From Clostridia bacterium (GTDB taxonomy: Bacteria > Bacillota > Clostridia > Oscillospirales > RGIG8002), in the NCBI GenBank assembly GCA_017620395.1, contig JAFZQJ010000027.1:1-64000 (forward strand): a DNA stretch of 64,000 nt. The letters run 5' to 3'. The notes beneath the pieces were generated by a model. It did no database searches. It saw only the letters and a list, made by a program, of their open reading frames with translations, and was not told the DNA's origin. The position numbers were made by a program, and so were the translations under genes. Below, piece by piece: positions 16,135 through 41,985 of this stretch (position 1 is its first letter; the number at the start of each line of letters is the position of its first letter).

Positions 16135-19100
16135 ATGAAAAAACTGACGGCAATACTGATATCGCTGCTTATCGTCGCGTGGCTTATGCCGTCCGGCGTT
16201 ATTTCCGCGGACGAAGGGTACGGGGGTTATAATGAAACGGTCCTGACGTCGCCTGATTTTTCGCCTGATTTCTACTACAAGATCTACGATACCAACGGCA
16301 AAGCGCTGACGTATGCGGAGAAGGATCCCGACGGAACGCTCGTTCTCGACGATCCCGTCGACGGCGACAAGCGTCAGGAATGGCAGATCGTCAGCGATCC
16401 TGCTTTGCACAGCCGCTACAGGATAATAAACAAATACTGCGCGTACGCTCTTACGATAAGGGTCGTATCCTCGTCGAACGAGCTTATTGCCGATAACGTC
16501 GACCTGAACAATTCCCGACAGGAGTGGTCTCTTCAGTATAAGAACGGTTATTTCACCATCACGATAAGAAACGCCGGGTCGCTGACCTATTCCGGACGCC
16601 GTGTCCGGACGACCGCCGTTTCTTCCGGAGCAAAGCAGTTCACGATCGCACGCATAAACGAACCCGGCTGGGTCGAGGACTGGACCGATGATTTCGATAC
16701 GTTCGATGAATCCAAGTGGAACCGCGCCGACGGACATCTGCAGACAGACAAAGCCGTCGTGATAAACGTCGGCGACGACGAACACGTCTATATAGAAGAC
16801 GGCAGTCTCGTGCTTCGCGCTGATATCGGAGACTACGGCGGATACGCTGCCGCCGCCGGTATGGTCGATACCGCCGGCAAATACTCAATTTCATACGGCA
16901 GGATTGAAATGCGGGCCAAACTGCCTCACGGCTACGGCACGTTCCCGGCGCTGTGGATGCTCGCGAACGAAACGCTCTGGGCGGGCAACGGCGAAATAGA
17001 CATTATGGAAATAAGCAACGAGGGAATGGATGACGCCGACGCGTATCTTTTCGGAACGCGCCACTGGACGACCACGGGCGGCATCCACACCTCCGAGGGC
17101 AGAACGCTTTACAATAAAAACCGCGTTCCGTTCAGCGAAGAATACCATACATTCGCGCTTGAGTGGGAAAACGATCAGATGCGCTGGTTCCTCGACGGGA
17201 TGCTTTACGCGTCGCACAATCCGAAAGCGAACGACGATAAATACGCCTTCGGCGACGATCCGCATTTTCTGATCCTCGATAACTGGATCCAGGGAGAAGA
17301 CGACGGAACGCTCACTTCCGGCAGGGACTACCCGGAAGAGTACCTTTACTACATCGACCGGATAACCGTAAGCAAGCGCGAAACGGGCAGCGATTACCTT
17401 CCGGACGAAACGACGCCTGAAACGACTTACACCTCCACTGCCGCAGACGTCGTCGCGCGTTCGCACGACTGGGATAACGAGATGCCGCTCGCGGTTTCGC
17501 CGGACGGCGGCGAGATCGCCGTTGCCGACGGAAAAGGATATATCTATATCGAGGACGCCGCCACGGGTCTTCAGAAGCGTATGCTGACCGCGCTCCCGAT
17601 GGTTCTTCTTTCGGCGATCGAGTATTCGCCGGACGGATCGAAGCTTGCCGTTGCGGATTTTGTCGGTACGATACTGATCTACGACACTTCGGATTACGAC
17701 GCGCCTCCGCTTCGCATCTGCAACGGCACCGTCTGCCACAGTAAGCTGCTGTTTACGAAGGACGGAACGGGGCTGATAACCGCGGATATGCCCGCGAGAG
17801 CGGCGCATAACGGCGCCGGCAACCAGTTTGACGGCAGCGTTGTGAAGCTCGGCTGTATGCGTGTGTTCGACGTCGCCACCGGCGCGTTGAGATACGAGAC
17901 CGAGATCGGCGGCGAGGGCAGGGGAACGGCGCTTTCGCCGGACGGCAGCCTGCTGGCCGTAGCGCTGCTCGACGGCAGATGCGTCCTGCTCGAAACCGAA
18001 ACCTTCACCGTGCTCGCTCACCTCGAATGCGGCGCCGCGCAGGCGCGCGGAGTCGCCTTCTCGTCGGATTCCTCTATGCTCGCGGTGACTGACGAGCGCG
18101 GCGGGATATACCTTTTCAACGTCGCGGATAAAACCCTTATCCGCAGAATGAACACGCTGAAAAACACGAGCATGACCTCCGTGCGCTTCTCCGCGGACGA
18201 CAAAAAGCTGCTCGTCAACTCCTCCGATAACTGCGCCCGACTTTACGACGTCGAAAGCGGAGAATTGCTGAAAATACTCGGAGGCTTCTCGCAGGCGGCG
18301 CACATAGCGGAGTTCTCTCCGGACGGAAACCGCATCGCCGTCGCGAGTCTCGACGGCAGGGTTAAGATCTACGACGCCGACGGCAGCTACCGCCGCACGC
18401 TCGTCACGTCGATGACGGAGCACAACGGACACGTTTTCTCGATGAAGTTCTCACCGTCCGGCGAATACGTTTACGCCACGACCTACACCTTCCCGAAGGC
18501 GCTCCACCGCTGGAGCGTGGACGGAGAATCCGGTCCCGCGTCCGTCGCCTACGACTGCGACTTTTTCTATAAGATAACCGACGGCGAGGCTACCGTTACC
18601 GGTTACCGTGGCAACGACAGAAACATCGTCGTTCCGGAAACGCTCGGCGGCTGCCCCGTCACGGTGATAGGCGCCGCGGCGTTCGGCGGCATGGGCAACT
18701 ACGCGAAAAACGTGAGCATAACGCTCCCGTCGACTTTGAAGCGCATCGAAACGGAGGCGTTCCGCAACTGCTGGACGCTCCGCGAGCTTATCCTGCCCGA
18801 AGGACTTGAGTATATCGCCAAAGAGTCGATCCACGGCTGCAAGCAGCTTACGGAACTTGTCATTCCGGATTCCGTGACATTTATCGGCGAAGACGCCTTC
18901 GACTGGTGCCACGGATTGCGGAAACTCGTTATCGGCAGCGGTATGAAGACCGTTCCGTCCGGCATCTGCGGAAACGTCCGCGCGCTGAAAGAGGTTATCC
19001 TGCGCGAAGGTGTCGAACGCGTCGAATCGGACGCGTTCGGAACAGCTCCGCTGGAAAAACTGCGTTTCCCGTCGACAATGACGGACTGCGCGGACGATGC

Positions 19101-19380
19101 GTTCGCGAGCCGTAACGTCAAGGTTTACGGCGCGCGCGGGAGCTACGCGGAGACCTTCTGCGCCGGGAACGCGGCCTGCGTTTTCAAAGAGCTTATCCGC
19201 GGCGACGTCGACGGCGACGGGCTGATAGGCGTTACTGACGCTCTCGAAATGCTACGTATTTCACTGGGAATAAAAAGAACGGATATTGATACCGCTGAAA
19301 AAATGGATATGGACGCCGACGCGGCGCTGACAGTCTCGGACGTGCTGTTGATAATGCGGGCGGCGGCGCATATACAGTAA
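16135..19380 (+). CDS. GH16 protein A: trefoil, GH16, beta-propeller, LRR_5, dockerin
   Basis: The 1081-residue secreted protein has five parts after a signal peptide (1-24). (1) A QxW-type beta-trefoil (about 40-175; Q-E-W-Q-I-V, Q-E-W-S-L). (2) A GH16 domain (about 180-418) with the catalytic motif G-E-I-D-I-M-E: nucleophile Glu287, Asp289, acid/base Glu292. (3) WD40-like repeats with S-P-D-G-x-x-x-A-V-A (about 436-792). (4) BspA-type LRR_5 repeats (about 805-1015). (5) A type I dockerin with two D-x-D-x-D-G-type loops (about 1021-1081). GH16 enzymes with this motif cut beta-1,3/1,4-glucans or related chains; the dockerin implies binding to a cohesin. It interrupts the priA-def gene order. 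Start: ATG 16135, eight bases after GAGG; the TTG just before it is possible. Confidence 0.9.
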   Translation: MKKLTAILISLLIVAWLMPSGVISADEGYGGYNETVLTSPDFSPDFYYKIYDTNGKALTYAEKDPDGTLVLDDPVDGDKRQEWQIVSDPALHSRYRIINKYCAYALTIRVVSSSNELIADNVDLNNSRQEWSLQYKNGYFTITIRNAGSLTYSGRRVRTTAVSSGAKQFTIARINEPGWVEDWTDDFDTFDESKWNRADGHLQTDKAVVINVGDDEHVYIEDGSLVLRADIGDYGGYAAAAGMVDTAGKYSISYGRIEMRAKLPHGYGTFPALWMLANETLWAGNGEIDIMEISNEGMDDADAYLFGTRHWTTTGGIHTSEGRTLYNKNRVPFSEEYHTFALEWENDQMRWFLDGMLYASHNPKANDDKYAFGDDPHFLILDNWIQGEDDGTLTSGRDYPEEYLYYIDRITVSKRETGSDYLPDETTPETTYTSTAADVVARSHDWDNEMPLAVSPDGGEIAVADGKGYIYIEDAATGLQKRMLTALPMVLLSAIEYSPDGSKLAVADFVGTILIYDTSDYDAPPLRICNGTVCHSKLLFTKDGTGLITADMPARAAHNGAGNQFDGSVVKLGCMRVFDVATGALRYETEIGGEGRGTALSPDGSLLAVALLDGRCVLLETETFTVLAHLECGAAQARGVAFSSDSSMLAVTDERGGIYLFNVADKTLIRRMNTLKNTSMTSVRFSADDKKLLVNSSDNCARLYDVESGELLKILGGFSQAAHIAEFSPDGNRIAVASLDGRVKIYDADGSYRRTLVTSMTEHNGHVFSMKFSPSGEYVYATTYTFPKALHRWSVDGESGPASVAYDCDFFYKITDGEATVTGYRGNDRNIVVPETLGGCPVTVIGAAAFGGMGNYAKNVSITLPSTLKRIETEAFRNCWTLRELILPEGLEYIAKESIHGCKQLTELVIPDSVTFIGEDAFDWCHGLRKLVIGSGMKTVPSGICGNVRALKEVILREGVERVESDAFGTAPLEKLRFPSTMTDCADDAFASRNVKVYGARGSYAETFCAGNAACVFKELIRGDVDGDGLIGVTDALEMLRISLGIKRTDIDTAEKMDMDADAALTVSDVLLIMRAAAHIQ

Positions 19381-19396
19381 TTGAGAGGAAAGAAAA

Positions 19397-19879
19397 ATGG
19401 CTGTAAGACAAATAATAGAATTCGGGGACGAAACGCTTCGCAAGCGCGCACGCGAGGTCGACAAGATCGACGCGAGGATAGAAACGCTTGTGGTGGATAT
19501 GAAAGAAACGATGGCGCTCGCCAACGGAGTCGGTCTTGCCGCTCCGCAGGTGGGGGTGCTTCGCCGCGTCGTTATCGTCGATCTTGAGGATATCGGCGTC
19601 GTTGAGCTGATAAACCCCGTAATTACCAAAAAATCGGGGCATCAGGAGGATATCGAGGGATGCCTTTCATATCCGGGCGAGTACGGCATTACCAACAGAC
19701 CTATGAACGTGACCGTCGAGGCGATGAACCTCGCCGGCGAAAAGGTGAAGTATTCCGTCAGCGGTCTCTCGGCGAGGGCTGTGTGTCACGAGGTCGACCA
19801 CCTCGACGGCAAGCTCTTTATAGATTGCGTCGTGCGTATGCTCGATCCGGACGAACTGAAGAGCGATAAAAAGGAGTAA
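19397..19879 (+). CDS. def: Peptide deformylase
   Basis: It removes the formyl group from nascent protein N-termini. All three motifs are intact: G-V-G-L-A-A-P-Q-V-G, E-G-C-L-S-Y-P-G (metal-binding Cys) and C-H-E-V-D-H-L-D-G (metal-binding His pair and catalytic Glu). The 160-residue length is standard. It is followed five bases later by fmt, the enzyme that adds the formyl group to initiator tRNA. Confidence 0.98.
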   Translation: MAVRQIIEFGDETLRKRAREVDKIDARIETLVVDMKETMALANGVGLAAPQVGVLRRVVIVDLEDIGVVELINPVITKKSGHQEDIEGCLSYPGEYGITNRPMNVTVEAMNLAGEKVKYSVSGLSARAVCHEVDHLDGKLFIDCVVRMLDPDELKSDKKE

Positions 19880-19884
19880 TTCGT

Positions 19885-20802
19885 TTGAGAATCGTTTTTA
19901 TGGGCACGCCGGACTTTGCCGCCGTTACCCTTAAAGAGCTTGTAGCCCGCGGCTTTGACGTCTGCGCTGTCATAACTCAGCCGGACAGAGTCAACGCACG
20001 CGGCAACAAGGTCGTTCCGGGCGCGGTAAAGACATACGCGGAAAGCGTAGGGCTTCCGGTATACCAGCCTATCTCGCTGCGCAACGGAGAAGGGGAGGAA
20101 ATATTCAAAGAGTTTTCTCCCGACGTCGCCGTCGTCGCCGCCTACGGCAAGATCCTGCCGGCGTCGCTTCTGAAACTGCCGCGCCTCGGCTGCGTGAACG
20201 TCCACGCCTCGCTGCTCCCGAAATACAGGGGCGCGTCGCCCATACAGACCGCGATCGTCAACGGCGAAACGGTCACCGGGGTGACGATAATGCAGCTCGA
20301 CGAAGGCATGGATACCGGCGATATGCTCGCCGTCCGCGAGGTTGAAATACCTCCCGAAATGACCGCCGGAGAGCTTTTCGACGCGCTTGCGCCGGTCGAC
20401 GCGGAGCTTCTCGCGGAAACGCTGATAAAGCTCGACGCAGGTGAAATAATACCCGTGAAGCAGGACGGTAGCATAGCGACCTATGCGCCTATGATCTCGA
20501 AAGAAGCGGCGGTCATAGACTACGGCAAAAGCGCAAAAAGCGTCGTCGACCTGGTGCGCGGGCTCAATCCCAACCCGGTCGCGCGGACCGATATAAACGG
20601 CAGCAGACTCAAGGTATACAAAGCCGCCGTCGGCGAAAAGACCTCGCGTCCCGCCGGAGAGGCTTACGAAAAAGACGGTATGATCGCCGTCGCGTGCGGA
20701 GACGGCAGGGAAGTGTTCCTGACGGAGGTGCAGGGCGAGGGCGGAAAGCGCATGGATTCCGCCGCGTATCTGCGCGGCCATCCGATTTTTAACGGGGAGT
20801 GA
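19885..20802 (+). CDS. fmt: Methionyl-tRNA formyltransferase
   Basis: It formylates initiator Met-tRNA using 10-formyltetrahydrofolate. The 305-residue protein starts M-R-I-V-F-M-G-T-P-D-F-A, has the folate-site H-A-S-L-L-P-K-Y-R-G-A-S-P-I and the catalytic region T-I-M-Q-L-D-E-G-M-D-T-G-D-M. The start is TTG at 19885 after AAGGAG. Confidence 0.98.
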   Translation: MRIVFMGTPDFAAVTLKELVARGFDVCAVITQPDRVNARGNKVVPGAVKTYAESVGLPVYQPISLRNGEGEEIFKEFSPDVAVVAAYGKILPASLLKLPRLGCVNVHASLLPKYRGASPIQTAIVNGETVTGVTIMQLDEGMDTGDMLAVREVEIPPEMTAGELFDALAPVDAELLAETLIKLDAGEIIPVKQDGSIATYAPMISKEAAVIDYGKSAKSVVDLVRGLNPNPVARTDINGSRLKVYKAAVGEKTSRPAGEAYEKDGMIAVACGDGREVFLTEVQGEGGKRMDSAAYLRGHPIFNGE

Positions 20803-20806
20803 TCAT

Positions 20807-21508
20807 ATGGGTTGGTATATTGACAGTTGGTATTTCATTCTTGTTGTTCCGGCGCTGATATTCATGCTCATAACGCAGATAGTCGTCAAGTCGGCTATCA
20901 GCAAATACGGGCAGGTGCGCACCGCGAGAGGAATAACCGGCAGAGAAATGGCGGAGATGATCCTTTCCGCGAACGGCATCCTCGACGTTCGTATCGAACG
21001 CCTGCAGAGCAGCGACGGCGACCACTACGATCCGAAGTCGAAGGCGATACGCCTGTCGGCGGACGTTTTTGACAAGAACTCGGTGACCGCCGTGGGCATC
21101 GCCGCGCACGAAGCGGGGCATGCCGTTCAGCACAATATCGGGTATTTCCCGCTGCGGATACGTAACTTCGTCATCCCGATAACGCAGTTTGTTTCGTGGC
21201 TGCCCGTACCGCTGCTTATAATCTCGGTCATCGTTTCCAACGAAAACGCGAGTATGATACTTTTCAAGACCGCGTTCATCATACTGTTTGCCGGGTTGTT
21301 CGTGCAGCTTATCACTCTGCCGGTGGAGTTTGACGCTTCGCGCAGAGCGATGTCCGCGATCCGTTCGCATAACGTCCTTGCGGAAGCCGAAGCCGTCGGT
21401 GCCAGAAAGGTGCTGACCGCGGCCGCAATGACCTACGTCGCGGCGTTTTTCGTAACGCTTATGAACATTATCCGTTTGCTGATGATATTCGGCAGGAGAA
21501 GCGACTGA
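20807..21508 (+). CDS. Membrane zinc metallopeptidase (YugP-like)
   Basis: The 233-residue membrane protein has an N-terminal helix, an H-E-A-G-H zinc motif (His101, Glu102, His105), and two to three further helices (about 120-165 and 200-228). This is the neutral zinc metallopeptidase family often found beside fmt and rsmB in Clostridia. The substrate is unknown. Its stop overlaps the rsmB start by one base. Confidence 0.92.
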   Translation: MGWYIDSWYFILVVPALIFMLITQIVVKSAISKYGQVRTARGITGREMAEMILSANGILDVRIERLQSSDGDHYDPKSKAIRLSADVFDKNSVTAVGIAAHEAGHAVQHNIGYFPLRIRNFVIPITQFVSWLPVPLLIISVIVSNENASMILFKTAFIILFAGLFVQLITLPVEFDASRRAMSAIRSHNVLAEAEAVGARKVLTAAAMTYVAAFFVTLMNIIRLLMIFGRRSD

Positions 21509-22812
21509 TGACCGATGCACGCGTCTGCGCCTATAAGGTGCTGAAAGCAGTTTCCGTGGGGGGCGCGTTCTCGCCCCGTGCGCTCGACGCCGAGATAAAG
21601 GCTGCTGAGCTTTCGGAGCAGGACGCGGCGCTTGCCGCCAATATCGTGTACGGAACGCTCGAGCGCGAGTCGCTGCTCGACGCGTATATAAAGCGCGAGC
21701 TGGCGCGGAAGGGTAAGCTCCGTCCGGAAATCTCCGTTATACTGCGGCTTTCCGCGTATCAGATACTCTTCTGTGACAAGATACCGGCGTATTCGGCGAT
21801 AAACGAGGGTGTAGAGCTCGCGAAATCGGTAGATTTCCATGCCGGCGGATTTGTCAACGCCGTGCTGCGGAATATCGACCGCCACCGCGGCGAAGGCGTT
21901 CTGCCGGACGCGAAAGCCGATCCGGTCGGATACCTTTCGCTTCGCTATTCCGTAGAGAACTGGATAGCGGAGGAATGGATAAAGGAATACGGCTTCGCCG
22001 CCGCTGAAGCGATACTCGCCGCGTCGGAGGGCAGACCTCCGCTGACGATCAGAGCAAACACGCTGAAAACCGACGCCGAGCGCCTCGCGCCTTTGCTTGA
22101 AGCGGAAGGCGTGAAGACGGAAAAACACCCGCTCGTTCCCGATATGCTTACCGTTTCCGGAACCGGAAGCGTCGACGGACTCGCCGCCTACCGCGGCGGA
22201 TTGTTTCACGTTCAGGACGCGGCGTCCGCGTTCTGCTGCGAAGTGCTCGGCGCGCGGCCGGGCGAGCGCGTTTACGACGTTTGCGCCGCGCCGGGAGGCA
22301 AGAGCTTCACGATCGCCGAGATGATGAAAAACGAAGGCGAGCTTCGCTCGTTTGACATAAGCGAAAAGAAGGTCGGACTTATTCGCGAAGGCGCTGAACG
22401 CCTCGGGATAAGCATACTTACCGCCGCCGTCCGCGACGCATCGAAGGGCGCCCTGCCGGAAGCGGACAGAGTGCTCTGCGACGTGCCGTGCTCGGGGCTC
22501 GGCGTTATACGCAAGAAACCGGAGATCCGCCGCAAACGCGCCATGGACGTCGCGGCGCTGCCGAAGATACAGACCGCGATACTCGAAAACTCCGCCCGCT
22601 GCGTCCGCAAAGGCGGCACGCTCGTCTATTCCACCTGCACGCTGTTGCGTGCGGAGAACGAAGCGGTAGTCGAGGCGTTCATGGCGGAAAACGGCGGCTT
22701 TGCGCCGTTGCCGTTTGCAACTCCCGACGGGAGAGAGGATTGGCGCGTCACGCTTCGCCCCGACCTGAACGGTACGGACGGATTTTTCGTTGCGAGAATG
22801 GTAAAAATATGA
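21508..22812 (+). CDS. rsmB: 16S rRNA (cytosine-967-C5)-methyltransferase
   Basis: The 434-residue protein has an N-terminal NusB-like RNA-binding domain (about 1-135) and a C-terminal SAM-dependent methyltransferase. The methyltransferase shows A-A-P-G-G-K-S-F (SAM loop), C-D-V-P-C-S-G-L-G-V and the catalytic Cys in S-T-C-T-L-L. The start ATG at 21508 overlaps the preceding stop. The stop overlaps the rlmN start (ATGA). Confidence 0.96.
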   Translation: MTDARVCAYKVLKAVSVGGAFSPRALDAEIKAAELSEQDAALAANIVYGTLERESLLDAYIKRELARKGKLRPEISVILRLSAYQILFCDKIPAYSAINEGVELAKSVDFHAGGFVNAVLRNIDRHRGEGVLPDAKADPVGYLSLRYSVENWIAEEWIKEYGFAAAEAILAASEGRPPLTIRANTLKTDAERLAPLLEAEGVKTEKHPLVPDMLTVSGTGSVDGLAAYRGGLFHVQDAASAFCCEVLGARPGERVYDVCAAPGGKSFTIAEMMKNEGELRSFDISEKKVGLIREGAERLGISILTAAVRDASKGALPEADRVLCDVPCSGLGVIRKKPEIRRKRAMDVAALPKIQTAILENSARCVRKGGTLVYSTCTLLRAENEAVVEAFMAENGGFAPLPFATPDGREDWRVTLRPDLNGTDGFFVARMVKI

Positions 22813-23864: not shown

Positions 23865-23870
23865 TATGCC

Positions 23871-26513: not shown

Positions 26514-26521
26514 GGGCTGTT

Positions 26522-26556: not shown

Positions 26557-26589
26557 GATTCTGAATAACTGTCACACGGGAGGTCAATT

Positions 26590-29500
26590 ATGAAGAAATT
26601 ATTGTCAGCACTGATACTGTTGTGTATGATCGCCGGCGTTTTTGCGGGATCGTTCACGATAACTGCGTCGGCTTCGACGACGAAAGCCGAACTCGAACAG
26701 AAACTTATCGAGGCTCGCGAGCTTTATTTCTCCGGCGGAAGCGAGCAGACGAGAAAGTATCTCTACGGTAAGATCCTTGCCGCGGATTCCGTTGTGCTGG
26801 ATGATTCCGCGGCGCAGGCGGAGATAGACGACGCCTACAGCCGCCTTTCCGCGGCGATCGAAGGTTTCGTGCCGATGGAAATATCCGACAGAATCGACCT
26901 CAACGGCGTCGATAAGTGGACGGGCGAGCAGATCGAAAGAATGGGACATTTCGGTATTGCTTCGCAAATCGTCACCGACGTCAAGCCGGCCGGCGCGTCG
27001 CAGTCGCTGAAGCTGACGGCGTGGGACAGTTACGTTATGTTCATCAACCGGCCCGGCGAAGACGGCGCTTATTCGCCGTTCGGAGTCGAGATGTATTTTT
27101 CCGACGGCCTTGCAATGTGGCTGGCTTCGGATAACTACGGCGCGGTCGGGAGCATCGAACTTTACGTCGGTAAAATGACCGCGGAATCGGAAGAAATGCT
27201 TTCGGTCTACGATATCCCCGTGACGAAAGAGGGCTACGTCTACGTTCCGTGGGAAATCTTCTATCCCGAAGTAACGACTCCCGATGCGAAGATAGACCTT
27301 TCCGGCGCGATGAACCTCATTGGCTTTGCCATCAACGGTGAAGCGGGTGCGAGCGTTTATATTTCCGACGTCCACGCTTTCAAGGAGACGATCGAAACCG
27401 ACGACCGCGTATATGCGGAGGATCCTGTCGCCGCGTTTGATGAAATAGACAACGACCACGTTTACAAGATATCCGATCCCGCGACCGGCAAGGTCGTCGC
27501 CTGGGGTCCGGAGCTTACGGAAACCGTCTTCAAATCGCAGGCTTCCAGCACCAGACTGGACTGGACTTCATCTGATCAGTCCTTCTCGCTCAGCGACAGC
27601 AACAGCTGCGACGTTACGCAGCAGTGGCAGATTTACAAGATGCTGCGCAGCGGCGATTACAAGCTTATCAACCAGGGTACGTCCGCGTGTATGACACGCG
27701 GCAGGACTCTCGGCATTATCGAAAACGGCAGTCTTACGCTTGAACGGCACGAGGATCTCGACAACTCATATCAGAAGTGGAGCGTGACCGAGAGCAACGG
27801 CAGGTTTGTTTTCAAGAGCGGCAGCAAGTATCTCGGCGTAAGCTCCGGAAAGCCCGCGCTCGTCAGCTCCGCTTACGAATGGGACGTTATCAAGTGCATA
27901 TCGGACGAATGGGTAGAGGTCTGGGGCGACGAATTCGACGGAAACTCGATAGACCGCACGAAGTGGAACGTCGCGAACGGTAAGGTGAGAGGCGACAGCG
28001 AGCCCGCGACATTCCGCGACGACCCCAACAATATCTACGTCAAGAACGGCGAGCTCGTTATCAGAACCGTAAAAGAGGATTACGGCAACTATCACGCTAC
28101 CTCCGGTTATATGGATACGCAGGGTATCTACGGCGTTACCTACGGCAAGATCGAGATGCGTGCCAAGCTTACGGACGGCAAGCGTTCATGGCCGGCTTTC
28201 TGGTCGATGGGGCAGTACGGCAACTGGCCGTATAACGGCGAGCTCGATATGATGGAGTTCGATATAAGCGATAACGCCAGCGATCCGTACGCGATATACG
28301 GCACTAACCACTGGTTCGCGTATCAGGGCAACCTTAACGGCAACGATACGAGCAACGATTATATGCAGCACGTTGCGAAGGGAACTACGATATATAACGA
28401 GAACAAAGAGCCCTACGCTGATGATTACCACACATTCACGGTAGAATGGGATGAAACGCAGGCGCGCACCTACGTCGACGGCATGATGTATATGTCGATG
28501 CTGCTGAAGACGGACGAGCTCCGCTGGGGTTTCGGCGACAATCCTCACTATCTGATCGTCAACGTTTCCACCAAGGGGCCGGGCAACAATCAGATATACA
28601 GCGATATGGCGGACGAAACGTTTATGTACGTCGATTACGTCCGTGTTTACAAGCGCGCCGGCGAAGTTTCCGACGTTACCGCTTATGACGACGAAGTGCT
28701 CAATTCGTCGAAGGTTGTGACGGGCAGCGGCTGGATGTGCGCTCTCGACGCTTCTCCCGACGGCAGATACGTCGCGTCTTCCGACAGAGGCACGGTTTAC
28801 CTTACCGACACGTCGGATAACTCGCTCATCAAAAGCAATTCCTGCGGATACAACGAGATCTCCAAGATACTCTATTCCGACGACGGCTCCAAGATCGCCG
28901 TAGCGTCGCGCGGGGATAAGGTGGTTATTCTTGACAGCCCCGCGCTGACGAGGAAAGCTACCGGTTCTTTCCCGCACGTATACGTCGAGGCTGTTGATTT
29001 CAGCAAAGACGGCAGCAAGCTATTCGCCGGAGGCAGGATCAGCGGAGAGGCGGACAGCTCGATCCCGAGCAAAGACGTTTCGCAATATGTTTATATAATG
29101 GATACGGCGACCGGCGCCGTTACGGAAGGCCCGTTTACCGGAACCAACATAAGGACTCTTAAGGTTTCGCCGGACGGCGCGAAGCTCGCCGCCGCCTGCG
29201 CAAACGGAAAGATAATCGTATACAGTATCAACGGCGGCGCGCTCACGGAATACGCGGTCTTTACCGATCATGTCCGCTGCGCCAGAGGTCTTGACTGGTC
29301 TCCGGACGGTCTGCTGCTCGCGACTACCGACGAGGGCGGTAAAATATTTGTATACGACGTCGATGCAAAATCGATGAAGTATGAAGCCGCGAATGTCAGC
29401 AGAGCCTCGATCCGCACCTGCGAATTCTCTCCGGACGGCAGCAAGCTGCTTGTCAGCGGCAGCGCTGACGGCGGCAGACTGTTTGACGCCGCGACCGGCA

Positions 29501-31854
29501 AGCTGATTTCCGTAATGGGCGGTTTCGGTCAGGCGGTCCCGACCGCGCATTGGTCTCCCGACGGGAATATGCTTCTGCTCATGAGCCTGGAGGGCTACGG
29601 CAGACTGTATACCGCAAACGGCGAATATCTCCGCACTCTCAACGGCAGACAGGAGGGCACCTACGCTATCCACAACGCCGTTTTCGCCGCCGGCGGAACA
29701 AAGATATACGGCATAACTTATCATAACAAAGCCAATACGCTTTGCTGGGATCTCGGTACCGGTAGCCTCGATACTTCTGAGCTCGAAGCGGCGCTTTGCG
29801 ACGCGGCGGTCGCCAACCCCGCAGATTACTCCGCCCGCGCATGGGGCGTGCTCGAAGGCATACGCAATAAATACAAGAAGCTTACCCGTATTTACACCGC
29901 CGATCAGGCCGACGTTACCGCCGCTGCCGTAACCGTACGCTGCGCCCTCGCGCTGAAGGACAATGAGATCTTCGGTTTCAAGCCGTGGCAGACCTCCGAT
30001 ACGTCTCTTATGACTGTAACGACCTGTCGTGCTACGATGCGCGATACGTCGGATGAAGGAGTTACTCACAATTCGCTCTGCGTTTACTCCACGCGTACAA
30101 AGTGGGAGTTCAATAATAAGACCGGGGACGAGGTCATAAAGAATCCGTTTGTAGCCGATATGCGCGACTACAGCGGACTCAGATTCAAAACATACTCCAC
30201 GAAAGCGGTAAACGACAGCGATATTCTCATCGGTTATACCGGCGAGGACGGCGATACGATCTACAAGTTCAACGTCGGCGCGATAGATACCGCCAAGATG
30301 GAAGTCGTCGCCCCGTTCGATCAGTTCGAGCGCGTCAGCGGCGACGGGCAGCTTGATCTTTCAAGACTTGAGATCATAGGCTTTACCGGTGCGGGCAAGT
30401 CCACTACCGGCGTATACTACTACGATCTGACCGCGTATCAGGATGAGGGCGAAATCCCCGTCGTCTTCGGCGTTGAAGAAGGCGGAGAATACGATCCGCC
30501 CGTCAGAATCACGTGGAGCGCCGGCAGGGGAGAACTGAACGGCCGCGACGTCGGATACGAAGTGACCGTCGACGAACCCGGCGACTATTTCCTGAAGGTT
30601 ATCAACCTCGATAAAACCGTTACAGTCAGTTTCCGTGTGCGCGAGGGCGGAATGCCCGGCGATCTCGACGGCGACGGAGAAATAACCGTTTCCGACGTCC
30701 TGATCTGTCTCAGAGTCGCGGCGCGCCTTATGACGGTCGACGCTGACTGCGACGCCAACGGCGACGGAGAGGTGGACGTGGCCGATGCGCTCACGCTGCT
30801 TCGTATCGCGCTCGGTATCGTTCCTCAGGGGCACGGCATACGCGGTATAGCGCTGATATGCGACGCTCCCGTCGACGAATGGGACGCTTTCACCGGCGCG
30901 GCGTATAAAGCGATCGACGATTTCGGCGCAAAGAATCATATTTATTGCTCCACGTATTATCCGCTCGGCGACGATTTCGATAACGGCCGCCTGATCGACG
31001 ACGCTTCGGCCGAAGGGTGCGACGTCTTCGTTGTGCTCGGCTTTATGATGACCGATCTCGTTGCGGAAAAAGCGCCGCAGTATCCGGACGCGAAGTTCAT
31101 CTTGATCGACGTTTCGCGCGACGAGCTGCTCGAAGCGGCGGGGGAGAACGGCTTTGACTACGGTAACGTTCTCTGCCTGACCTATCGCGAGGAGGTCGCC
31201 GGATTCCTTGCCGGCTATGCGGCGGTTAAACTCGGATACAATAATCTCGGTTTCATCGGCGGAATGCCCATTCCCGCCGTTATGCGCTACGGTTACGGAT
31301 TCCTGCAGGGAGCGGATGCCGCTTCGCGGGAACTGAGCATAACGGCGAACGTGAAGTTTGCCTATGCGAATTCCTTCGCTCCGTCGGAAGAGCTGACGGA
31401 AAAGATGTGCGCATGGTACGACGGCGGCGTGCAGGCGGTATTCGCATGCGGAGGAGGCATCTGCCTCTCCGTCGCCGAAGCCGCGCAGGAAAAGGGCGGC
31501 AAGCTGATCGGCGTCGACTCGGATCAGTCCGAGATGTTTGACGAAGGACTCGTCCTGACGTCCGCGGTAAAGGGCGTTTATCCGTCGGTTTTCAACAGCC
31601 TTGAAACGATAGAGGAAGGGAAGTGGGCCGACTGCGCCGGCCGGCACTTCATTCTCGGAGTCAACGACCCGCAGAATCCGGAGAACAACTTTGTCCAGCT
31701 GCCGTATGAGACAACTCAGTGGAATCAGACCTTCGGGCAGGAAGACTACGCGCAATTGATCTCGCTCCTGTGCGAAGGCGAACTGACCGTTTCCGACGAA
31801 ATCGACGCCGCGCCGTCCGTTACTGCCGTGAGCGTCGAATACGTCGAGTTTTGA
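26590..31854 (+). CDS. GH16 protein B: CBM-like modules, GH16, beta-propeller, dockerin, BMP domain
   Basis: This 1754-residue secreted protein has a signal peptide (1-28), a FIVAR-like helical stretch (30-95), and a beta-sandwich CBM-like module (100-267). A QxW trefoil (285-435) and GH16 (438-690) follow, the latter with catalytic Y-N-G-E-L-D-M-M-E (Glu551, Asp553, Glu556). Next come WD40-like repeats (703-1057), a second FIVAR-like stretch (1061-1120), a second CBM-like module (1127-1290), an Ig-like module (1292-1355) and a type I dockerin (1357-1413). A C-terminal BMP/PnrA-type periplasmic-binding domain (1415-1754; I-A-L-I-C-D start, F-I-G-G-M-P-I-P-A-V core) ends the protein. BMP proteins normally are separate lipoproteins of nucleoside ABC importers, so the fusion is odd. 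The ATG follows GGGAGG by six bases. Module borders are approximate. Confidence 0.88.
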   Translation: MKKLLSALILLCMIAGVFAGSFTITASASTTKAELEQKLIEARELYFSGGSEQTRKYLYGKILAADSVVLDDSAAQAEIDDAYSRLSAAIEGFVPMEISDRIDLNGVDKWTGEQIERMGHFGIASQIVTDVKPAGASQSLKLTAWDSYVMFINRPGEDGAYSPFGVEMYFSDGLAMWLASDNYGAVGSIELYVGKMTAESEEMLSVYDIPVTKEGYVYVPWEIFYPEVTTPDAKIDLSGAMNLIGFAINGEAGASVYISDVHAFKETIETDDRVYAEDPVAAFDEIDNDHVYKISDPATGKVVAWGPELTETVFKSQASSTRLDWTSSDQSFSLSDSNSCDVTQQWQIYKMLRSGDYKLINQGTSACMTRGRTLGIIENGSLTLERHEDLDNSYQKWSVTESNGRFVFKSGSKYLGVSSGKPALVSSAYEWDVIKCISDEWVEVWGDEFDGNSIDRTKWNVANGKVRGDSEPATFRDDPNNIYVKNGELVIRTVKEDYGNYHATSGYMDTQGIYGVTYGKIEMRAKLTDGKRSWPAFWSMGQYGNWPYNGELDMMEFDISDNASDPYAIYGTNHWFAYQGNLNGNDTSNDYMQHVAKGTTIYNENKEPYADDYHTFTVEWDETQARTYVDGMMYMSMLLKTDELRWGFGDNPHYLIVNVSTKGPGNNQIYSDMADETFMYVDYVRVYKRAGEVSDVTAYDDEVLNSSKVVTGSGWMCALDASPDGRYVASSDRGTVYLTDTSDNSLIKSNSCGYNEISKILYSDDGSKIAVASRGDKVVILDSPALTRKATGSFPHVYVEAVDFSKDGSKLFAGGRISGEADSSIPSKDVSQYVYIMDTATGAVTEGPFTGTNIRTLKVSPDGAKLAAACANGKIIVYSINGGALTEYAVFTDHVRCARGLDWSPDGLLLATTDEGGKIFVYDVDAKSMKYEAANVSRASIRTCEFSPDGSKLLVSGSADGGRLFDAATGKLISVMGGFGQAVPTAHWSPDGNMLLLMSLEGYGRLYTANGEYLRTLNGRQEGTYAIHNAVFAAGGTKIYGITYHNKANTLCWDLGTGSLDTSELEAALCDAAVANPADYSARAWGVLEGIRNKYKKLTRIYTADQADVTAAAVTVRCALALKDNEIFGFKPWQTSDTSLMTVTTCRATMRDTSDEGVTHNSLCVYSTRTKWEFNNKTGDEVIKNPFVADMRDYSGLRFKTYSTKAVNDSDILIGYTGEDGDTIYKFNVGAIDTAKMEVVAPFDQFERVSGDGQLDLSRLEIIGFTGAGKSTTGVYYYDLTAYQDEGEIPVVFGVEEGGEYDPPVRITWSAGRGELNGRDVGYEVTVDEPGDYFLKVINLDKTVTVSFRVREGGMPGDLDGDGEITVSDVLICLRVAARLMTVDADCDANGDGEVDVADALTLLRIALGIVPQGHGIRGIALICDAPVDEWDAFTGAAYKAIDDFGAKNHIYCSTYYPLGDDFDNGRLIDDASAEGCDVFVVLGFMMTDLVAEKAPQYPDAKFILIDVSRDELLEAAGENGFDYGNVLCLTYREEVAGFLAGYAAVKLGYNNLGFIGGMPIPAVMRYGYGFLQGADAASRELSITANVKFAYANSFAPSEELTEKMCAWYDGGVQAVFACGGGICLSVAEAAQEKGGKLIGVDSDQSEMFDEGLVLTSAVKGVYPSVFNSLETIEEGKWADCAGRHFILGVNDPQNPENNFVQLPYETTQWNQTFGQEDYAQLISLLCEGELTVSDEIDAAPSVTAVSVEYVEF

Positions 31855-31866
31855 AGGGATGACGCC

Positions 31867-32220
31867 GTGATATACGCGCACATAGGTGAAAACGTCTTGG
31901 AGATAGAGCTTGCGAATAACTCGTCGGCGGAAGCCTTCGCCGACCTGCTTTCGCAGGGCGACGTAACCGTAGAAATGCACGATTACGGCGGCTTTGAGAA
32001 GGTCGGTCCGCTCGGCGCGACGCTTCCGAGAAACGACGAAGCGATAACCACTGCGCCCGGCGACGTCATTCTTTACCTCGGCAATCAGATCACGATATAC
32101 TATGACGTCAACTCCTGGACCTTCACGCGCCTCGGCAGAGTAAGCGGCCTTTCGCAGAGCGAGCTGAAAGCCGTGCTGGGCGGCGGAGAAGTTATCGTCA
32201 GGTTTTCACTCACTCGCTGA
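31867..32220 (+). CDS. Small cyclophilin-like fold protein
   Basis: The 117-residue protein resembles the bacterial cyclophilin-like domain family: a strand-rich N-terminus, L-L-S-Q-G-D-V-T-V-E-M-H-D-Y-G-G-F-E-K-V-G-P-L-G, then A-P-G-D-V-I-L-Y-L-G-N-Q-I-T-I-Y-Y and a G-R-V-S-G-L tail. Such proteins lack proven peptidyl-prolyl isomerase function. It has no signal peptide, so it is probably cytoplasmic. The GTG start is 12 bp after the stop of GH16 gene B, with AAGGG at the stop codon, so the two are likely co-transcribed. Why a cytoplasmic protein is paired with a secreted hydrolase is unclear. Confidence 0.75.
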   Translation: MIYAHIGENVLEIELANNSSAEAFADLLSQGDVTVEMHDYGGFEKVGPLGATLPRNDEAITTAPGDVILYLGNQITIYYDVNSWTFTRLGRVSGLSQSELKAVLGGGEVIVRFSLTR

Positions 32221-32240
32221 ACGAAGCGGGATAACAAAAA

Positions 32241-32272
32241 ACGGACGGGCGCGGTGCGTCCGTCCGTTTTTG
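32241..32272 (+). terminator. Terminator after the cyclophilin-like gene
   Basis: A 12-bp stem ACGGACGGGCGC / GCGTCCGTCCGT (one wobble), loop GGT, preceded by A and followed by TTTTT. Confidence 0.85.
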
Positions 32273-32287
32273 ATTCACTTCAAAAAG

Positions 32288-32319
32288 GTAAATAAAAGGG
32301 GCTGCCTTTCAGCAGCCCC
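32288..32319 (-). terminator. Terminator of the minus-strand RNA unit
   Basis: On the minus strand GGGGCTGC, loop TGAAAG, GCAGCCCC, then TTTTATTT. It marks the 3' end of the candidate non-coding RNA. Confidence 0.85.
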
Positions 32320-32655
32320 GTGCGTTGTTAGGTACAATCACAATTAAGAACCTTTCTCATATCCGCAACCTGCGGGACAAGCGGTAAATGTGAGTAACTC
32401 AGGTCTCCTTGGTGATTTCTCCTTTTCGCTTATTTTGGTCTTGTACGTCGACAGTGCGTCTTTGCTTTATTGCCCTAACGGGGCACCGCGGTATCCGCAA
32501 GGGGAGTGACCGCCGTCATTTCGCGTCAGACGGTTTCAACGAGAGCGCCGTCCGCACAACGCGCCGCCGACGTGGCGGTATTTGAGGTGTACATGGGAAT
32601 CGCCCCCTTAACTTTCCGACGAAATATCCCTTCCGGGAGTCCGTCTGTTCTTTAC
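32294..32655 (-). ncRNA. Candidate structured non-coding RNA, about 360 nt
   Basis: The 730-bp gap between two GH16 genes holds a complete minus-strand unit: consensus promoter (32690-32662), about 360 nt, intrinsic terminator. The RNA is rich in local stems: TCCC-GGAA-GGGA enclosed by GACG/CGTC, CCGCC/GGCGG, CGCGT with GACGG pairing to CCGTC and ACGCG, GCGGT/ACCGC, TGCCC/GGGCA, and CCGCA/TGCGG inside CTCA/TGAG. It lacks the tmRNA acceptor end, RNase P and SRP cores, so I cannot name it. One 22-codon open frame with AGGGGG eight bases before ATG lies at 32594-32526; a dual coding/RNA role is possible. The rest of the intergenic gap (32700-32949) is AT-rich with no feature I can support. Confidence 0.6.
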
Positions 32656-32661
32656 GCTTAT

Positions 32662-32690
32662 ATAATAGCAGGTCATTTCCGAATTGTCAA
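32662..32690 (-). promoter_or_regulatory. Sigma-A promoter of the candidate RNA
   Basis: Minus strand TTGACA (32690-32685), 17-bp spacer, TATTAT (32667-32662). The -35 is a perfect match. No protein-coding gene of ordinary size lies downstream before the terminator. Confidence 0.8.
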
Positions 32691-32949
32691 TAGTTTTTTT
32701 GAAAAAACTTTAATTTTTTTGTACAAAACGCCTACAAACGTTTTCCTCAGCTGTTTGACGGAAGAAAAACGGAGCATTTTTACCGTTATTCCGCTCTTTT
32801 CCGACATATATCAGGCGGAAATATCACCGATCAGTAATAATGTCACAATGCGACAAGAAAATAACATTAGTTTCTGATAATATATATACGAAAATGTGGT
32901 ATTGTGCGCTGTTTTATGCGCTGATCGTAATTATCTCGGAGGAATACTG

Positions 32950-35900
32950 ATGAAAACTGTGAAAAGAATCATTTCAACTGTTTTGTGTCTCGCTTTGCTC
33001 ATTCCCGCGGCGGTAATACCGGCCGCGGCCGTCAGCACCGAAGAGCTTGAGGCGCTGTACGCGACTGCCGGCGCCCTGATTTACAGCGACGGCACTCACG
33101 CTTCGCGCAGGCAGCTCAAAGCCGCTTATGATACTGCCGAGGCTGTGATTTCACAAGGCAACGCTTTGAATTCCGACATTGTCTCCGCGACGTCGCTGCT
33201 CTCCGCCGCGATAGACGGATTTGTCGCCGTGGAAGCGCCGGAAAGACGGGAGATCGCAGGTATCGCCGCATGGGATGCCGCGACTGTTTCCTCCTTTACA
33301 GACACCTCCGGATGCGCGGTCTTCTTCGGTGAGGATGCCGACCGCCGCGCTGCCGTCAAGGTCGTTACGGCGGGGAAGGACGTCGCGTATTTCTCCAACG
33401 CTGCCTCCGACGCCGCGATAGACGGCGCTTCGGTTTTCACCGGTGACATTACCGACACCGCCGGTCTGCGTTTCCGTACAAGCTTCAACGATCTTTCTCT
33501 CGTCGAGAGCGTCAGCGTCTCCGTCGGAGTCAGGAGCGCCGACGGAAGGAAGACCTATACCGCCGTCGGCATCCCGGCCAAAAACGGTTACGTTGCCGTC
33601 GACTGGGAGTTCTTCTATTCCGATTACGATGCGATAGGGACCGGAGTCGACCTTGCGAACCTAAATTACGTTGCGTTCGCGTTCGAGGGAGTAAAGCCCG
33701 GCTTCATCGGCCTCGTTTCGGATCTCCACTGCTTTACCGAAAACATACTTGCCACCGAAAGGCCGGAGTACCGGGAGGTCAAAGCCGCTTCGATAATCTC
33801 CGGCAACTACTATAAAATCGTCGACAGCAACACAGGTCTCGCGCTTACGCTTTCGGAGCGCGTAACGGATACCGAGACGATGACCGCGACCGGGTATGAA
33901 AACCGCATAGTCAACAAACAGTCCGGTCTTTCCGTAACGATGGAAGCGAGAAAAGAGGATCCGCGGCAGGAGTGGCAGATCTACCGCCACAATGACGGCA
34001 CGTTCAGGATCATCAACAAAGACAGTTCGCTCGCGCTCAGCGCCAGCTATTATGTTCTCAGCTACACAATCGACACGTCCGTACTGAACCTCAGCGATAC
34101 CGCGCAGGAATGGAGAGTAGCAAGATCGTCAAACGGTTTCAAGATTTCCGTTTCGTCTGCGAGCGCGTATTATATGAATTACAGCGGCGGAAACCTGAAA
34201 GCGTCCGGCGTGCAGCAGGTTTGGGACGTCTATGAATGCGTCCGCGGCGAATGGAATCAGGTTTGGAACGACGAGTTCGACGGCGACTCCATCGACCGCA
34301 GCAAGTGGACCGTATACGATGCTAAAAACCGCGGCGACACCGAGCCGGTCTATTTCCGCGACAACGAAAACAACGTCTGCGTCAGTGACGGCGACCTTAT
34401 CATACGCACTAAGCGCGAAAACTACCTCGGCTACCCGACGACCGGCGCGTATCTGACCACCGAAGGGCATTATTACACGTCCTTCGGAAGGTTTGAAATG
34501 CGCGCGAAGCTGGCAGTGGGCGCGTGGATCTGGCCTGCGTTCTGGCTTCAGGGCGCTCCTCCTTCCAACTGGCCGCAGAACGGTGAAATCGACGTTATGG
34601 AGCTTGTCGGCGGCGGCAAAGAGGATTCCAAGCTGTACGGGACCTTCCACTGGCTCTCGGACTACGCGGACGGCAGCAGGGAGTTCGTCAAGGGCGTCGA
34701 ATTCTATAACAAAAACAACGTCAGCCTCGGCGACGATTACCACACCTACGCCGTTGAATGGGAACACGACCAGATGCGTATCTACTTTGACGGTATGCAG
34801 TATGTATCCCTGAATCTGACCTCCGACAGCGAACGCTGGGGCTACGGCGATCTGCCGCATTATATTACTCTCAACACCTCGATCAGAGGCCCCGGGAACG
34901 ATGAGATTTACCCTGATACCGCGGACGAATCGGAGTTTATCATTGACTATGTGCGCGTATCCAAGCGCTCGGGTGATATGTCCGCTTCCACGGAGACCGC
35001 TGATTCCGCGCCGATAGAAGGGCAGAAAATATACGCAGGCATAATCGACGATGTGAACGTAGCGGCTTCGCCGGACGGCAACTTCTTCGTCGTCACCAAC
35101 CGCTACGGCGACGTGAACCGGTTCAACGCCCGCACCGGCGAAAAGCAGAGTGCGGACGTAAACGACAGTACGGTCTTCTCCGCGCTCAAATACTCTCCGA
35201 GCGGCAGATTCATTGCCGCGGGTTCGAGGATGAGCGGACTTGTCATTTATAAGAATTCGGATTTGTCAAGCAAATCCCGTGCGACCGTGAACGGGCTTTA
35301 CTTCGAGTCACTGGCGTTTTCCGCCGATGAAAGCACTATCTACGCAGGCGGCAGAAACGACAACCAGGCCGGTGGCGCGTCAGATAACAAGTATTTATAC
35401 GCCTTCGGAACGTCGTCGGGCTCCCAGCGCGGCAAGGTGTATATCGGCTCCGACGTAAGAAGCATAGCCGTTTCCGATGACGGAAAGTATATCGCTGCCG
35501 GAACTTCCTCCGGAAAGATTTACGTCGTCGACGCGGATACTCTTGCGATAGAAGGCGAATGCGAAATGGAGGCGGTTGTCCGCAGCCTTGCTTTCATTCC
35601 GAGCAGCGATCGTTTTGCCGCTTCGGACGAGGCGGGTAATATAAAGGTGTTCGACGCTGAAACGCGCGGCGTTGTGATGACTCTCGATAACCCGGACGGC
35701 GCGTCCGTCTCATCGATAGAAATATCGCCTGACGGCAGCCGCCTTGTCGCGACTTCGACCGACAATAACGCAAGGCTTTTCGACCTCGGCAGCGGACGTC
35801 TCATCCAGCTGCTCGACGGCTTCACTCAGCAAACCACCGCCGCGAAGTTCTCCCGCGACGGCAACCGCATCGTAGTTTCCTCTCTTGACGGCACCGTCCG

Positions 35901-37431
35901 CGTTTACAGCGACTGCGGCGGACTGCTTTACGTTCTCAATGTGACCGCCGGAACGAAGAAGGGGAACAGCATCGCTGACGTTGCGATCTCCGGCGACGGG
36001 ACATCGGTAATGGCGGTGCCGATACAGAATAACGACAGCGTTTTCTTCTGGACGCTGCCGGGGATGGCGGATAAGACGCCTCTTTATAACGCGATAAACG
36101 CCGCGTCCGATATCGACTATTCCGAATATACCCACGAGAGCGTGGCGGCGCTGCGCGAAGCGATGGAGAGCGCGAACGCGCTGCTCCGCGGTCACAAGGC
36201 TGACGCCTCGGAGATTGCCGCGGGCGTCGCGCTGATAAACAACGCCGCGAACCATCTCGTCAAGCTTCCGGGAGGCGAAGTCGTTCTCAACGGCTTTGAC
36301 GGCTGGACCTCCGAAGACGTCGCGGCCATGAGCTCAACGAGAGCCACGCTGAGCCTCACGTCCTCGTCCGTTTCGATAACGCCGAACGTCAGACAGTCGC
36401 TCTGCATCAGCGCCGGCTCCACTACGACGTGGACTATGTATAACACCACGAGCGGGGGAGAGATTTCCGGCCGCAACCCGTTCGGAGCCGACCTTTCCAA
36501 CAGCGACGGCATCTCGATCTGGGCGAAAGGACTGACGAAGGAACAAAACAACGGCAAGATATTCATCGGCCACACCGGCGTTGAAGGAAGCTTCTTGTTC
36601 AGCGCTTCGCTGCCGACGATAACGACCTCCGGCGGCTATATCAACATACCTTTTTCCGATTTCACATACGTTTCCGGCGAAGAGACGCTTGACCTGACGA
36701 AGCTGAACACCATCGGCTTCTCCGGCAAGGGCGCGAAGGGAATGTTCGTCTTCACCGAGCTGACCGCGTACACCGAAGCGGGCGCAATGCCCGTGGTCAC
36801 CGGCGTTACCGACGGTGCGGCGTATAACATAACCGGCGCCGAAGCTCCGTCCGCGAACTGGGACAGCGGCATGGCGTTCCTCGACGGCGAATACTACGTC
36901 GCCGGAACTCCTATCACGGAAACGGGCGAGCATACGCTCGTCGTTAATAACCACGGCACCGAAGCGACCGTGACGTTTACGGTTACCGATAATACGCCGA
37001 TTCCCGTTATAACCGGCGTCGCCGAACGGCAGGTCTTTGACCTTGCAAACGGCGAGAGCGCGTCCCCCTCGTGGAACGTCGGCTCAGCGACGCTGAACGG
37101 CGAAGCGTATAACGGCGCGGCGATCAACAAGGTCGGCGAGTACACGCTGACCGTGACGAACGGCTATAAAAAAGCCTCCGTGTTCTTCATCGTCGTCGAC
37201 ACGTCCGAGAACCAGTCGGTATACATGAAGGGCGATATGGACAAGGACGGCGAAATAACGGTCGCGGACGCGCTGAAAGCGCTGCGCATCGCGGCGAAGC
37301 TCGCTCAGCAGACCGACGAGGATGTTATGATCGGCGACACGGATAACGACGGCGAGATCACCGTCGCAGACGCCCTCAAAATCCTCCGCGTCGCCGCGAA
37401 GCTCGCGGACGCGGCAAGCCTCGGAGAATGA
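32950..37431 (+). CDS. GH16 protein C: CBM-like modules, GH16, beta-propeller, Ig-like pair, dockerin
   Basis: From ATG 32950 (GGAGG seven bases upstream) the protein has 1493 residues. Its parts are: signal peptide (1-27), FIVAR-like stretch (28-92), CBM-like module (about 95-265), QxW trefoil (275-430; Q-E-W-Q-I-Y, Q-E-W-R-V), and GH16 (435-672) with catalytic N-G-E-I-D-V-M-E (Glu546, Asp548, Glu551). Then WD40-like repeats (692-1037), a second FIVAR-like stretch (1045-1105), a second CBM-like module (1110-1280), two Ig-like repeats (1283-1420) and a type I dockerin (1427-1493) with two D-G-E-I-T-V-A-D-A-L loops. It is the closest relative of protein B but lacks the BMP domain. Predicted role: docked, secreted beta-glucan hydrolase. 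An earlier in-frame ATG at 32896 would bury the signal peptide. Confidence 0.9.
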   Translation: MKTVKRIISTVLCLALLIPAAVIPAAAVSTEELEALYATAGALIYSDGTHASRRQLKAAYDTAEAVISQGNALNSDIVSATSLLSAAIDGFVAVEAPERREIAGIAAWDAATVSSFTDTSGCAVFFGEDADRRAAVKVVTAGKDVAYFSNAASDAAIDGASVFTGDITDTAGLRFRTSFNDLSLVESVSVSVGVRSADGRKTYTAVGIPAKNGYVAVDWEFFYSDYDAIGTGVDLANLNYVAFAFEGVKPGFIGLVSDLHCFTENILATERPEYREVKAASIISGNYYKIVDSNTGLALTLSERVTDTETMTATGYENRIVNKQSGLSVTMEARKEDPRQEWQIYRHNDGTFRIINKDSSLALSASYYVLSYTIDTSVLNLSDTAQEWRVARSSNGFKISVSSASAYYMNYSGGNLKASGVQQVWDVYECVRGEWNQVWNDEFDGDSIDRSKWTVYDAKNRGDTEPVYFRDNENNVCVSDGDLIIRTKRENYLGYPTTGAYLTTEGHYYTSFGRFEMRAKLAVGAWIWPAFWLQGAPPSNWPQNGEIDVMELVGGGKEDSKLYGTFHWLSDYADGSREFVKGVEFYNKNNVSLGDDYHTYAVEWEHDQMRIYFDGMQYVSLNLTSDSERWGYGDLPHYITLNTSIRGPGNDEIYPDTADESEFIIDYVRVSKRSGDMSASTETADSAPIEGQKIYAGIIDDVNVAASPDGNFFVVTNRYGDVNRFNARTGEKQSADVNDSTVFSALKYSPSGRFIAAGSRMSGLVIYKNSDLSSKSRATVNGLYFESLAFSADESTIYAGGRNDNQAGGASDNKYLYAFGTSSGSQRGKVYIGSDVRSIAVSDDGKYIAAGTSSGKIYVVDADTLAIEGECEMEAVVRSLAFIPSSDRFAASDEAGNIKVFDAETRGVVMTLDNPDGASVSSIEISPDGSRLVATSTDNNARLFDLGSGRLIQLLDGFTQQTTAAKFSRDGNRIVVSSLDGTVRVYSDCGGLLYVLNVTAGTKKGNSIADVAISGDGTSVMAVPIQNNDSVFFWTLPGMADKTPLYNAINAASDIDYSEYTHESVAALREAMESANALLRGHKADASEIAAGVALINNAANHLVKLPGGEVVLNGFDGWTSEDVAAMSSTRATLSLTSSSVSITPNVRQSLCISAGSTTTWTMYNTTSGGEISGRNPFGADLSNSDGISIWAKGLTKEQNNGKIFIGHTGVEGSFLFSASLPTITTSGGYINIPFSDFTYVSGEETLDLTKLNTIGFSGKGAKGMFVFTELTAYTEAGAMPVVTGVTDGAAYNITGAEAPSANWDSGMAFLDGEYYVAGTPITETGEHTLVVNNHGTEATVTFTVTDNTPIPVITGVAERQVFDLANGESASPSWNVGSATLNGEAYNGAAINKVGEYTLTVTNGYKKASVFFIVVDTSENQSVYMKGDMDKDGEITVADALKALRIAAKLAQQTDEDVMIGDTDNDGEITVADALKILRVAAKLADAASLGE

Positions 37432-41984: not shown

Positions 41985-41985
41985 A

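Follow-up and report, generated by a model that had tools for sequence, protein, structure and literature searches.

A 64,000-nucleotide stretch from the genome of a Clostridia bacterium (assembly GCA_017620395.1, contig JAFZQJ010000027.1, positions 1 to 64,000; hereafter the window) carries three genes, all within ~21 kb and all on the plus strand, whose large modular products join a glycoside hydrolase domain of family GH16 to a WD40 propeller and a dockerin. Complete open reading frames were confirmed for protein A (16135..19380, 1081 aa), protein B (26590..31854, 1754 aa) and protein C (32950..37431, 1493 aa), the last starting with an ATG accompanied by a Shine-Dalgarno sequence. An earlier note on this DNA, made from the sequence alone, had assigned a trefoil, a GH16 domain, a propeller and a dockerin to each protein, and Pfam, alignment and GDxDxDG motifs agree on this common core. 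GH16 (PF00722, cut-off 22 bits) scored 55, 33 and 59 bits in A, B and C, respectively, and WD40 (PF00400, cut-off 27) scored 62, 58 and 75 bits. A RicinB lectin was matched at about threshold in A and C, and the trefoil of B is carried by the alignment of all three proteins; the type I dockerin profile (PF00404, cut-off 22.9 bits) was passed by A and B. The catalytic E-x-D-x-M-E is kept throughout, as NGEIDIME (A), NGELDMME (B) and NGEIDVME (C).

Around this core the architectures differ. Protein A, encoded between priA and def, consists of a signal peptide, a beta-trefoil, the GH16 catalytic domain (16666..17379), the propeller (residues 427-798; 17413..18528), BspA-type leucine-rich repeats (LRR_5 in Pfam; 18742..19116) and a type I dockerin (19198..19377; 25.0 bits). 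Protein B, which starts at the rsgA slot after prkC, has a signal peptide, a FIVAR-like and beta-rich N-terminal region, a trefoil, GH16 (27910..28659) and propeller (28687..29784) domains, further FIVAR-like and beta-rich modules, an internal type I dockerin (30655..30834; 26.5 bits) and, behind it, a C-terminal substrate-binding domain of Bmp/PnrA type (PF02608, over cut-off; 30853..31851). Protein C has a FIVAR-like and beta-rich N-terminal region, a trefoil, GH16 (34252..34971) and propeller (35014..36063) domains, FIVAR, beta-rich and Ig-like modules, and a dockerin (37228..37428). Thus FIVAR-like and beta-rich modules flank the core on both sides in B and C but not in A. The earlier note had overlooked these modules, the LRR_5 of A and the Bmp domain of B, as well as 12 further paralogues described below.

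The GH16 domains are predicted to be laminarinase-like. Their nearest solved sequences are the laminarinases 3azx (T. maritima) and 4dfs (T. petrophila), probably of subfamily GH16_3, to which the domains here may also belong. Protein A, the sole family member modelled whole, gave a model with a mean predicted local distance difference test score (pLDDT) of 83.9 and a predicted template modelling score of 0.79 (22 aligned sequences), in which the GH16 domain matched laminarinases 3azy and 4dfs with Z ~30, a root-mean-square deviation (rmsd) of 1.7-1.9 and 34% identity. The T. maritima and T. petrophila enzymes therefore resemble A in fold, in E-x-D-x-M-E and, by structure, in ~34% of residues; those entries consist of the catalytic domain, whereas here GH16 is joined to a propeller, a trefoil, leucine-rich-repeat or beta-rich modules and a dockerin. 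For the propeller, residues 427-798 of the model superposed on ODA16 with Z 41.2 and an rmsd of 2.1 over 334 residues, and the other best matches were Rsa4, TBL1XR1 and Sqt1, all four of which we take to be eight-bladed; the designed eight-bladed Tako8 matched with Z 37.6. The propeller of A is accordingly modelled as a closed eight-bladed WD40 toroid.

Searching the organism's own genome (G000, a 1.93 Mb draft that is 98.7% complete) with a combined GH16 and propeller profile returned 15 full-length genes, on contigs C14, C16, C22, C27, C28, C29 and C31. The propeller directly follows the GH16 domain in all 15, every GH16 domain exceeds 22 bits in Pfam, and E-x-D-x-x-E is kept in each. Dockerins, terminal or internal, were recognized by profile or motif in 13 of the 15. 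One of the two members lacking a dockerin, C14b, has a lipoprotein-like N-terminus (FAAC), and another paralogue, C14a, has no obvious signal peptide. The suggestion that the set serves one particular glucan is not supported: the domains are laminarinase-like, yet the roughly 25-36% identity that the paralogues share with A fits several substrates or roles. Separately, the in-frame TGA that was flagged in C14a proved to be the gene's own stop codon, and the orthologue of C14b in one congener (G001) has an in-frame TAG between GH16 and propeller (G001:C109:6208-6212), reflecting either a broken gene or a sequencing error.

The same profile gave 16-20 matches in each of three congeners (G001-G003). 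Outside the genus, GH16 was joined to the propeller in none of 55 other genomes of the order, only GH16-only matches were returned from 290 other genomes sampled across the class, and the propeller alone matched just twice, and weakly (E ~1e-16), beyond the own genome when 299 genomes of the phylum were searched. A scan of 84,980 species, one genome per species, found the full-length arrangement in just two Clostridia metagenome-assembled genomes, both congeneric and from the rumen of water buffalo (RGIG8183) and goat (RGIG3742); the scan started from two short GH16 motifs and kept 80 loci, so that more remote cases may have been missed. Among the genomes searched, the GH16-propeller family is confined to one genus of ruminant Clostridia, which bears out the view that WD40 repeats on a secreted GH16 enzyme are an unusual combination. 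A 2017 survey recorded 5 WD40 proteins in total in 364 Firmicutes species, with prokaryotic WD40 proteins found mainly in Cyanobacteria and Planctomycetes and in many cases linked to kinases (PMC5587647). A module nearly absent from the phylum in that survey is nevertheless repeated here in predicted secreted enzymes. The prokaryotic WD40 protein PkwA of Thermomonospora curvata (5yzv) was among the top Foldseek matches and likewise has WD40 repeats; known prokaryotic examples are often kinase-linked, whereas here 15 occur in one genome, in enzymes that are mostly predicted to be secreted, with the modelled one eight-bladed. Among the papers searched, none combined dockerin, WD40 and GH16, and none combined GH16, WD40 and laminarinase.

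Both core domains are under purifying selection, as judged from 34 orthologue comparisons in which the median ratio of nonsynonymous to synonymous substitution rates (dN/dS) was 0.08 for GH16, 0.13 for the propeller and 0.16-0.18 for the flanks; the propeller is somewhat less constrained than the catalytic domain.

If the dockerins act in attachment, cohesins are expected in the same genome, and the earlier note had proposed searching for them. Five cohesin domains were matched, four over cut-off, and one of them is membrane-anchored: reading the proteins by eye, the first has a single cohesin followed by a linker and a C-terminal transmembrane segment, one has two cohesins and a dockerin, and two have one cohesin each and a dockerin. 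Cohesins were also detected in all three congeners. Among the dockerin matches listed, 62 of 78 were over cut-off, counted by eye. Features shared with the cellulosomes of Clostridia and Ruminococcus are the type I dockerins borne by predicted secreted enzymes, a cell-anchored protein with a single cohesin, and an adaptor-like protein that combines two cohesins with a dockerin. In contrast to those systems, there are here just five cohesins, no carbohydrate-binding module on the cohesin proteins, ~75 dockerins and a large family of propeller-bearing enzymes. No classical cellulosome scaffoldin was seen, with at most two cohesins per protein and no carbohydrate-binding module in the four cohesin proteins by Pfam, in a draft whose completeness would allow for a missing gene. 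Other large proteins, most with dockerins, lie at L160:4176-6800, L163:10777-13821, L166:3014-6421 and L178:2-3844 (all minus strand); some have an N-terminal PGFxxYT-like motif in common, and they carry a rhamnosidase-like domain, a metallophosphatase domain or no named domain.

The combination of cohesins, one of them membrane-anchored, with laminarinase-like GH16 domains is best explained by surface-tethered endo-beta-1,3(4)-glucanases. We therefore propose, with a probability of roughly 0.68, that the family to which A, B and C belong comprises about 15 secreted, modular endo-beta-glucanases of laminarinase-like type, docked to the cell surface by dockerin-cohesin pairing. According to this model the enzymes would be exported and their dockerins would pair with cohesins on the cell surface, while GH16 would cleave beta-1,3- or mixed beta-1,3/1,4-glucans internally and the trefoil and beta-rich modules would help to hold the glycan. 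The propeller would serve as a rigid platform on which partners, probably proteins, could dock, and B would probably also bind nucleosides near the cell surface. The least certain step is the propeller as a docking face for protein partners, for which we put the odds at about even. Several observations weigh against the proposal. Dockerins outnumber cohesins by ~15:1 (about 75 versus five), and the dockerin of C scores 18.9 bits, below the Pfam cut-off of 22.9, despite its two GDxDxDG repeats. The role given to the propeller is read from its fold alone, and WD40 propellers can bind other ligands too. Finally, B of G001 has no Bmp domain, which B can therefore do without.

The propeller could instead be a lectin-like module that binds glycan and targets the enzyme to its substrate, with enzymes acting alone and dockerins serving just as anchors. 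Its position directly after the catalytic domain in 15 of 15 members, its constraint and the neighbouring trefoil and beta-rich modules of glycan-binding type would suit such a role. However, its best fold matches are mostly intracellular WD40 propellers that dock proteins, and no sign of a glycan site was noticed in the propeller sequence, although no search was aimed at one; we regard the lectin-like role as possible, if rather improbable. Alternatively, dietary or fungal beta-glucan might not be the main target, and the family might act mostly on surface glycans, the cell's own or those of its neighbours, to remodel the envelope or to adhere. Modules of the LRR_5, FIVAR and Ig-like kinds are widespread among surface adhesins and occur here as well, and the paralogues are highly diverged, one being lipoprotein-like and one without an obvious signal peptide. 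Against this, the catalytic domains resemble laminarinases most closely, and the named relatives come from the rumen, an environment rich in beta-glucans, which makes a main role in surface-glycan remodelling unlikely.

To return to the proposed surface-docked glucanases, B is distinguished by its Bmp domain, whose best solved relative is Lbp of Clostridium thermocellum (7x0r, E 2.8e-22). Residues lining the nucleoside pocket have been listed in a study of BmpA (PMC13325309). Mapped through alignments, with offsets of 6 (BmpA) and 36 (BmpD) counted by hand, the pocket of B keeps Asp19, Phe27, Asp98, Phe176, Val224, Asp225 and Lys242, with Tyr in place of Phe151 (BmpA) and Thr in place of Asn28 (BmpD). 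Both aromatic positions that stack on the nucleobase are kept, and the same seven residues are kept in the G003 copy, which is 61% identical. Within the own genome, a solo Bmp lipoprotein on contig C33 shares 42% identity with the domain (E 1e-90); its operon also encodes two permeases, an ABC ATPase and a pyrimidine-nucleoside phosphorylase, the last scoring above its curated cut-off. Given the conserved pocket and a relative in a nucleoside operon, a nucleoside is our best guess for the ligand, and the domain was probably derived from the organism's own transporter protein. BmpA, BmpD, TmpC/PnrA and Lbp share PF02608 and the pocket residues with the domain of B; they are free lipoproteins in ABC transporter operons, whereas that of B is fused behind a dockerin, has no lipobox of its own and has no adjoining transporter genes. 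Literature searches returned no description of a fusion between a glucanase, a dockerin and a nucleoside-type binding protein. A model of the C-terminal half of B (pLDDT 48) was not used.

Laminaribiose is a product of laminarinases, and Lbp, the best PDB match, was first described as a laminaribiose-binding protein, so that the Bmp domain might bind what the enzyme releases. The crystal of Lbp, however, contained guanosine and showed density that laminaribiose did not match, and the transporter mutant could still grow on laminaribiose (PMC9601137). Together with the conserved pocket, in which the nucleobase-stacking aromatics are kept, and the nucleoside operon of the nearest relative in the genome, this weakens laminaribiose as a candidate ligand and leaves it doubtful. 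It is a shade more doubtful still that the domain is a read-through artefact or the decaying remnant of a neighbouring gene. This would account for its absence in G001 and for a rate of evolution against G003 (dN/dS 0.29) that is a little above that of most of B, but the domain lies in frame within one open reading frame in B of three genomes (G000, G002 and G003), its dN/dS values are 0.17 (against G002) and 0.29 (against G003), and its pocket residues persist between copies that are 61% identical. A tree of the four genomes left the branching order unsettled and does not decide between gain and loss of the domain. Between G000 and G002, synonymous divergence is 0.34 over the Bmp part (30853-31851), compared with 0.58-1.45 over the rest of B, and the lower value may hint at exchange between lineages.

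A more ambitious scheme, which we consider improbable, would extend surface docking into an array organized by the propellers: each of the 15 laminarinase-like enzymes, held on a base of few cohesins, would offer its eight-bladed propeller as an exchangeable face for docking partners, and B would couple the attack on beta-glucan-walled cells to the capture of released nucleosides, which it would hand on to the nucleoside transporter of the cell. Apart from this scheme, WD40 propellers are the standard docking platform of eukaryotic cells, and their repetition in this family suggests that enzyme complexes may be assembled on a rumen bacterium in a manner so far unrecognized, with propeller partners that are open to direct testing. 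GH16, dockerin and WD40 domains are each well known; what appears to be new, within the reach of our searches, is that they are fused, that the fusion has expanded 15-fold and that a Bmp domain has been added.

The history of the family was examined using trees that were quick, with support from the Shimodaira-Hasegawa-like approximate likelihood ratio test (SH-aLRT) only, and in which deep forks among subgroups are weak. The GH16 tree also included 17 GH16 domains from outside and the GH16-only genes of the genus; in it, the 54 rows with a propeller fall into a single clade (SH-aLRT 99). Every one of the 15 paralogues has an orthologue in at least one other genome of the genus. The single clade and the orthologues of every paralogue indicate one fusion event followed by expansion before the four species split, making this an old, genus-wide family. 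Two tandem GH16-only genes on contig C20 (G000:C20:97974-99456, L170) are sister to the propeller-bearing clade and may represent the state before the propeller was gained. A clusters with the C16/C22 paralogues (support 94 in the GH16 tree and 98 in the propeller tree), B and C are placed with C14a in the GH16 tree (support 85 and 82), and the two trees largely agree. Because A groups with C16/C22, and B and C with C14a or apart from A, the three genes are not a tandem triplet. That they arose by a recent local tandem expansion into the housekeeping locus of this genome, as their lying so close together could suggest, is ruled out for practical purposes by trees and synteny, since the nearest paralogues of A are on other contigs in both trees and all three genes occupy the same places in congeners, save that B and C are on different contigs in G001. 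The lineage-specific expansion proposed in the earlier note thus stands in so far as the family is genus-restricted with cohesins in the genome, but it comprises 15 genes rather than three and is not local.

Gene order at the locus is priA-A-def-fmt-...-rsmB-rlmN-stp-prkC-B-C. The placement of A between priA and def, where relatives were said to have no insert, agrees with the order: the end of priA lies 23-80 bases from def in 23 of 26 relatives; two of the others have a gap of ~520-680 bases between the matched part of priA and def, and the last gave no priA match. A is directly upstream of def in all four genomes of the genus. B and C were likewise described as following prkC at the usual place of rsgA, and this too matches. 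Of 26 other genomes of the order, 25 have rsgA. Both rsgA and def could be located in 24 genomes, and in 20 of these they share a contig and are 5.9-7.8 kb apart; B starts 7.2 kb after def, in the rsgA slot. In all four genomes of the genus, three of them at least 97% complete, nothing above cut-off was found for rsgA. By this search rsgA is not merely displaced but undetected genus-wide, and this apparent absence, with the slot taken by enzyme genes, can be tested as well. Similar genes also adjoin lgt and folD-like genes, and dnaX-recR-like genes (assigned by eye), so housekeeping neighbourhoods are a general habit of the family. In G001, another large protein adjoins B.

Three smaller features of the window were recorded. 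A small Cyclophil_like2 gene (31867..32220, plus strand) begins 12 bases after B and was not detected at the G002 and G003 loci. Between B and C, a single-copy block of ~376 bases (32285-32660, minus strand) is conserved in all four genomes of the genus at 85-94% identity and ends, on the minus strand, in a terminator-like hairpin. It had no credible Rfam match, was not found in five other genomes of the order and showed no covariation in RNAalifold; it is possibly a structured RNA. Further downstream, a Gut-1 RNA (RF01706) lies at 41876-42072 on the minus strand, adjoining tRNA-Leu(taa).

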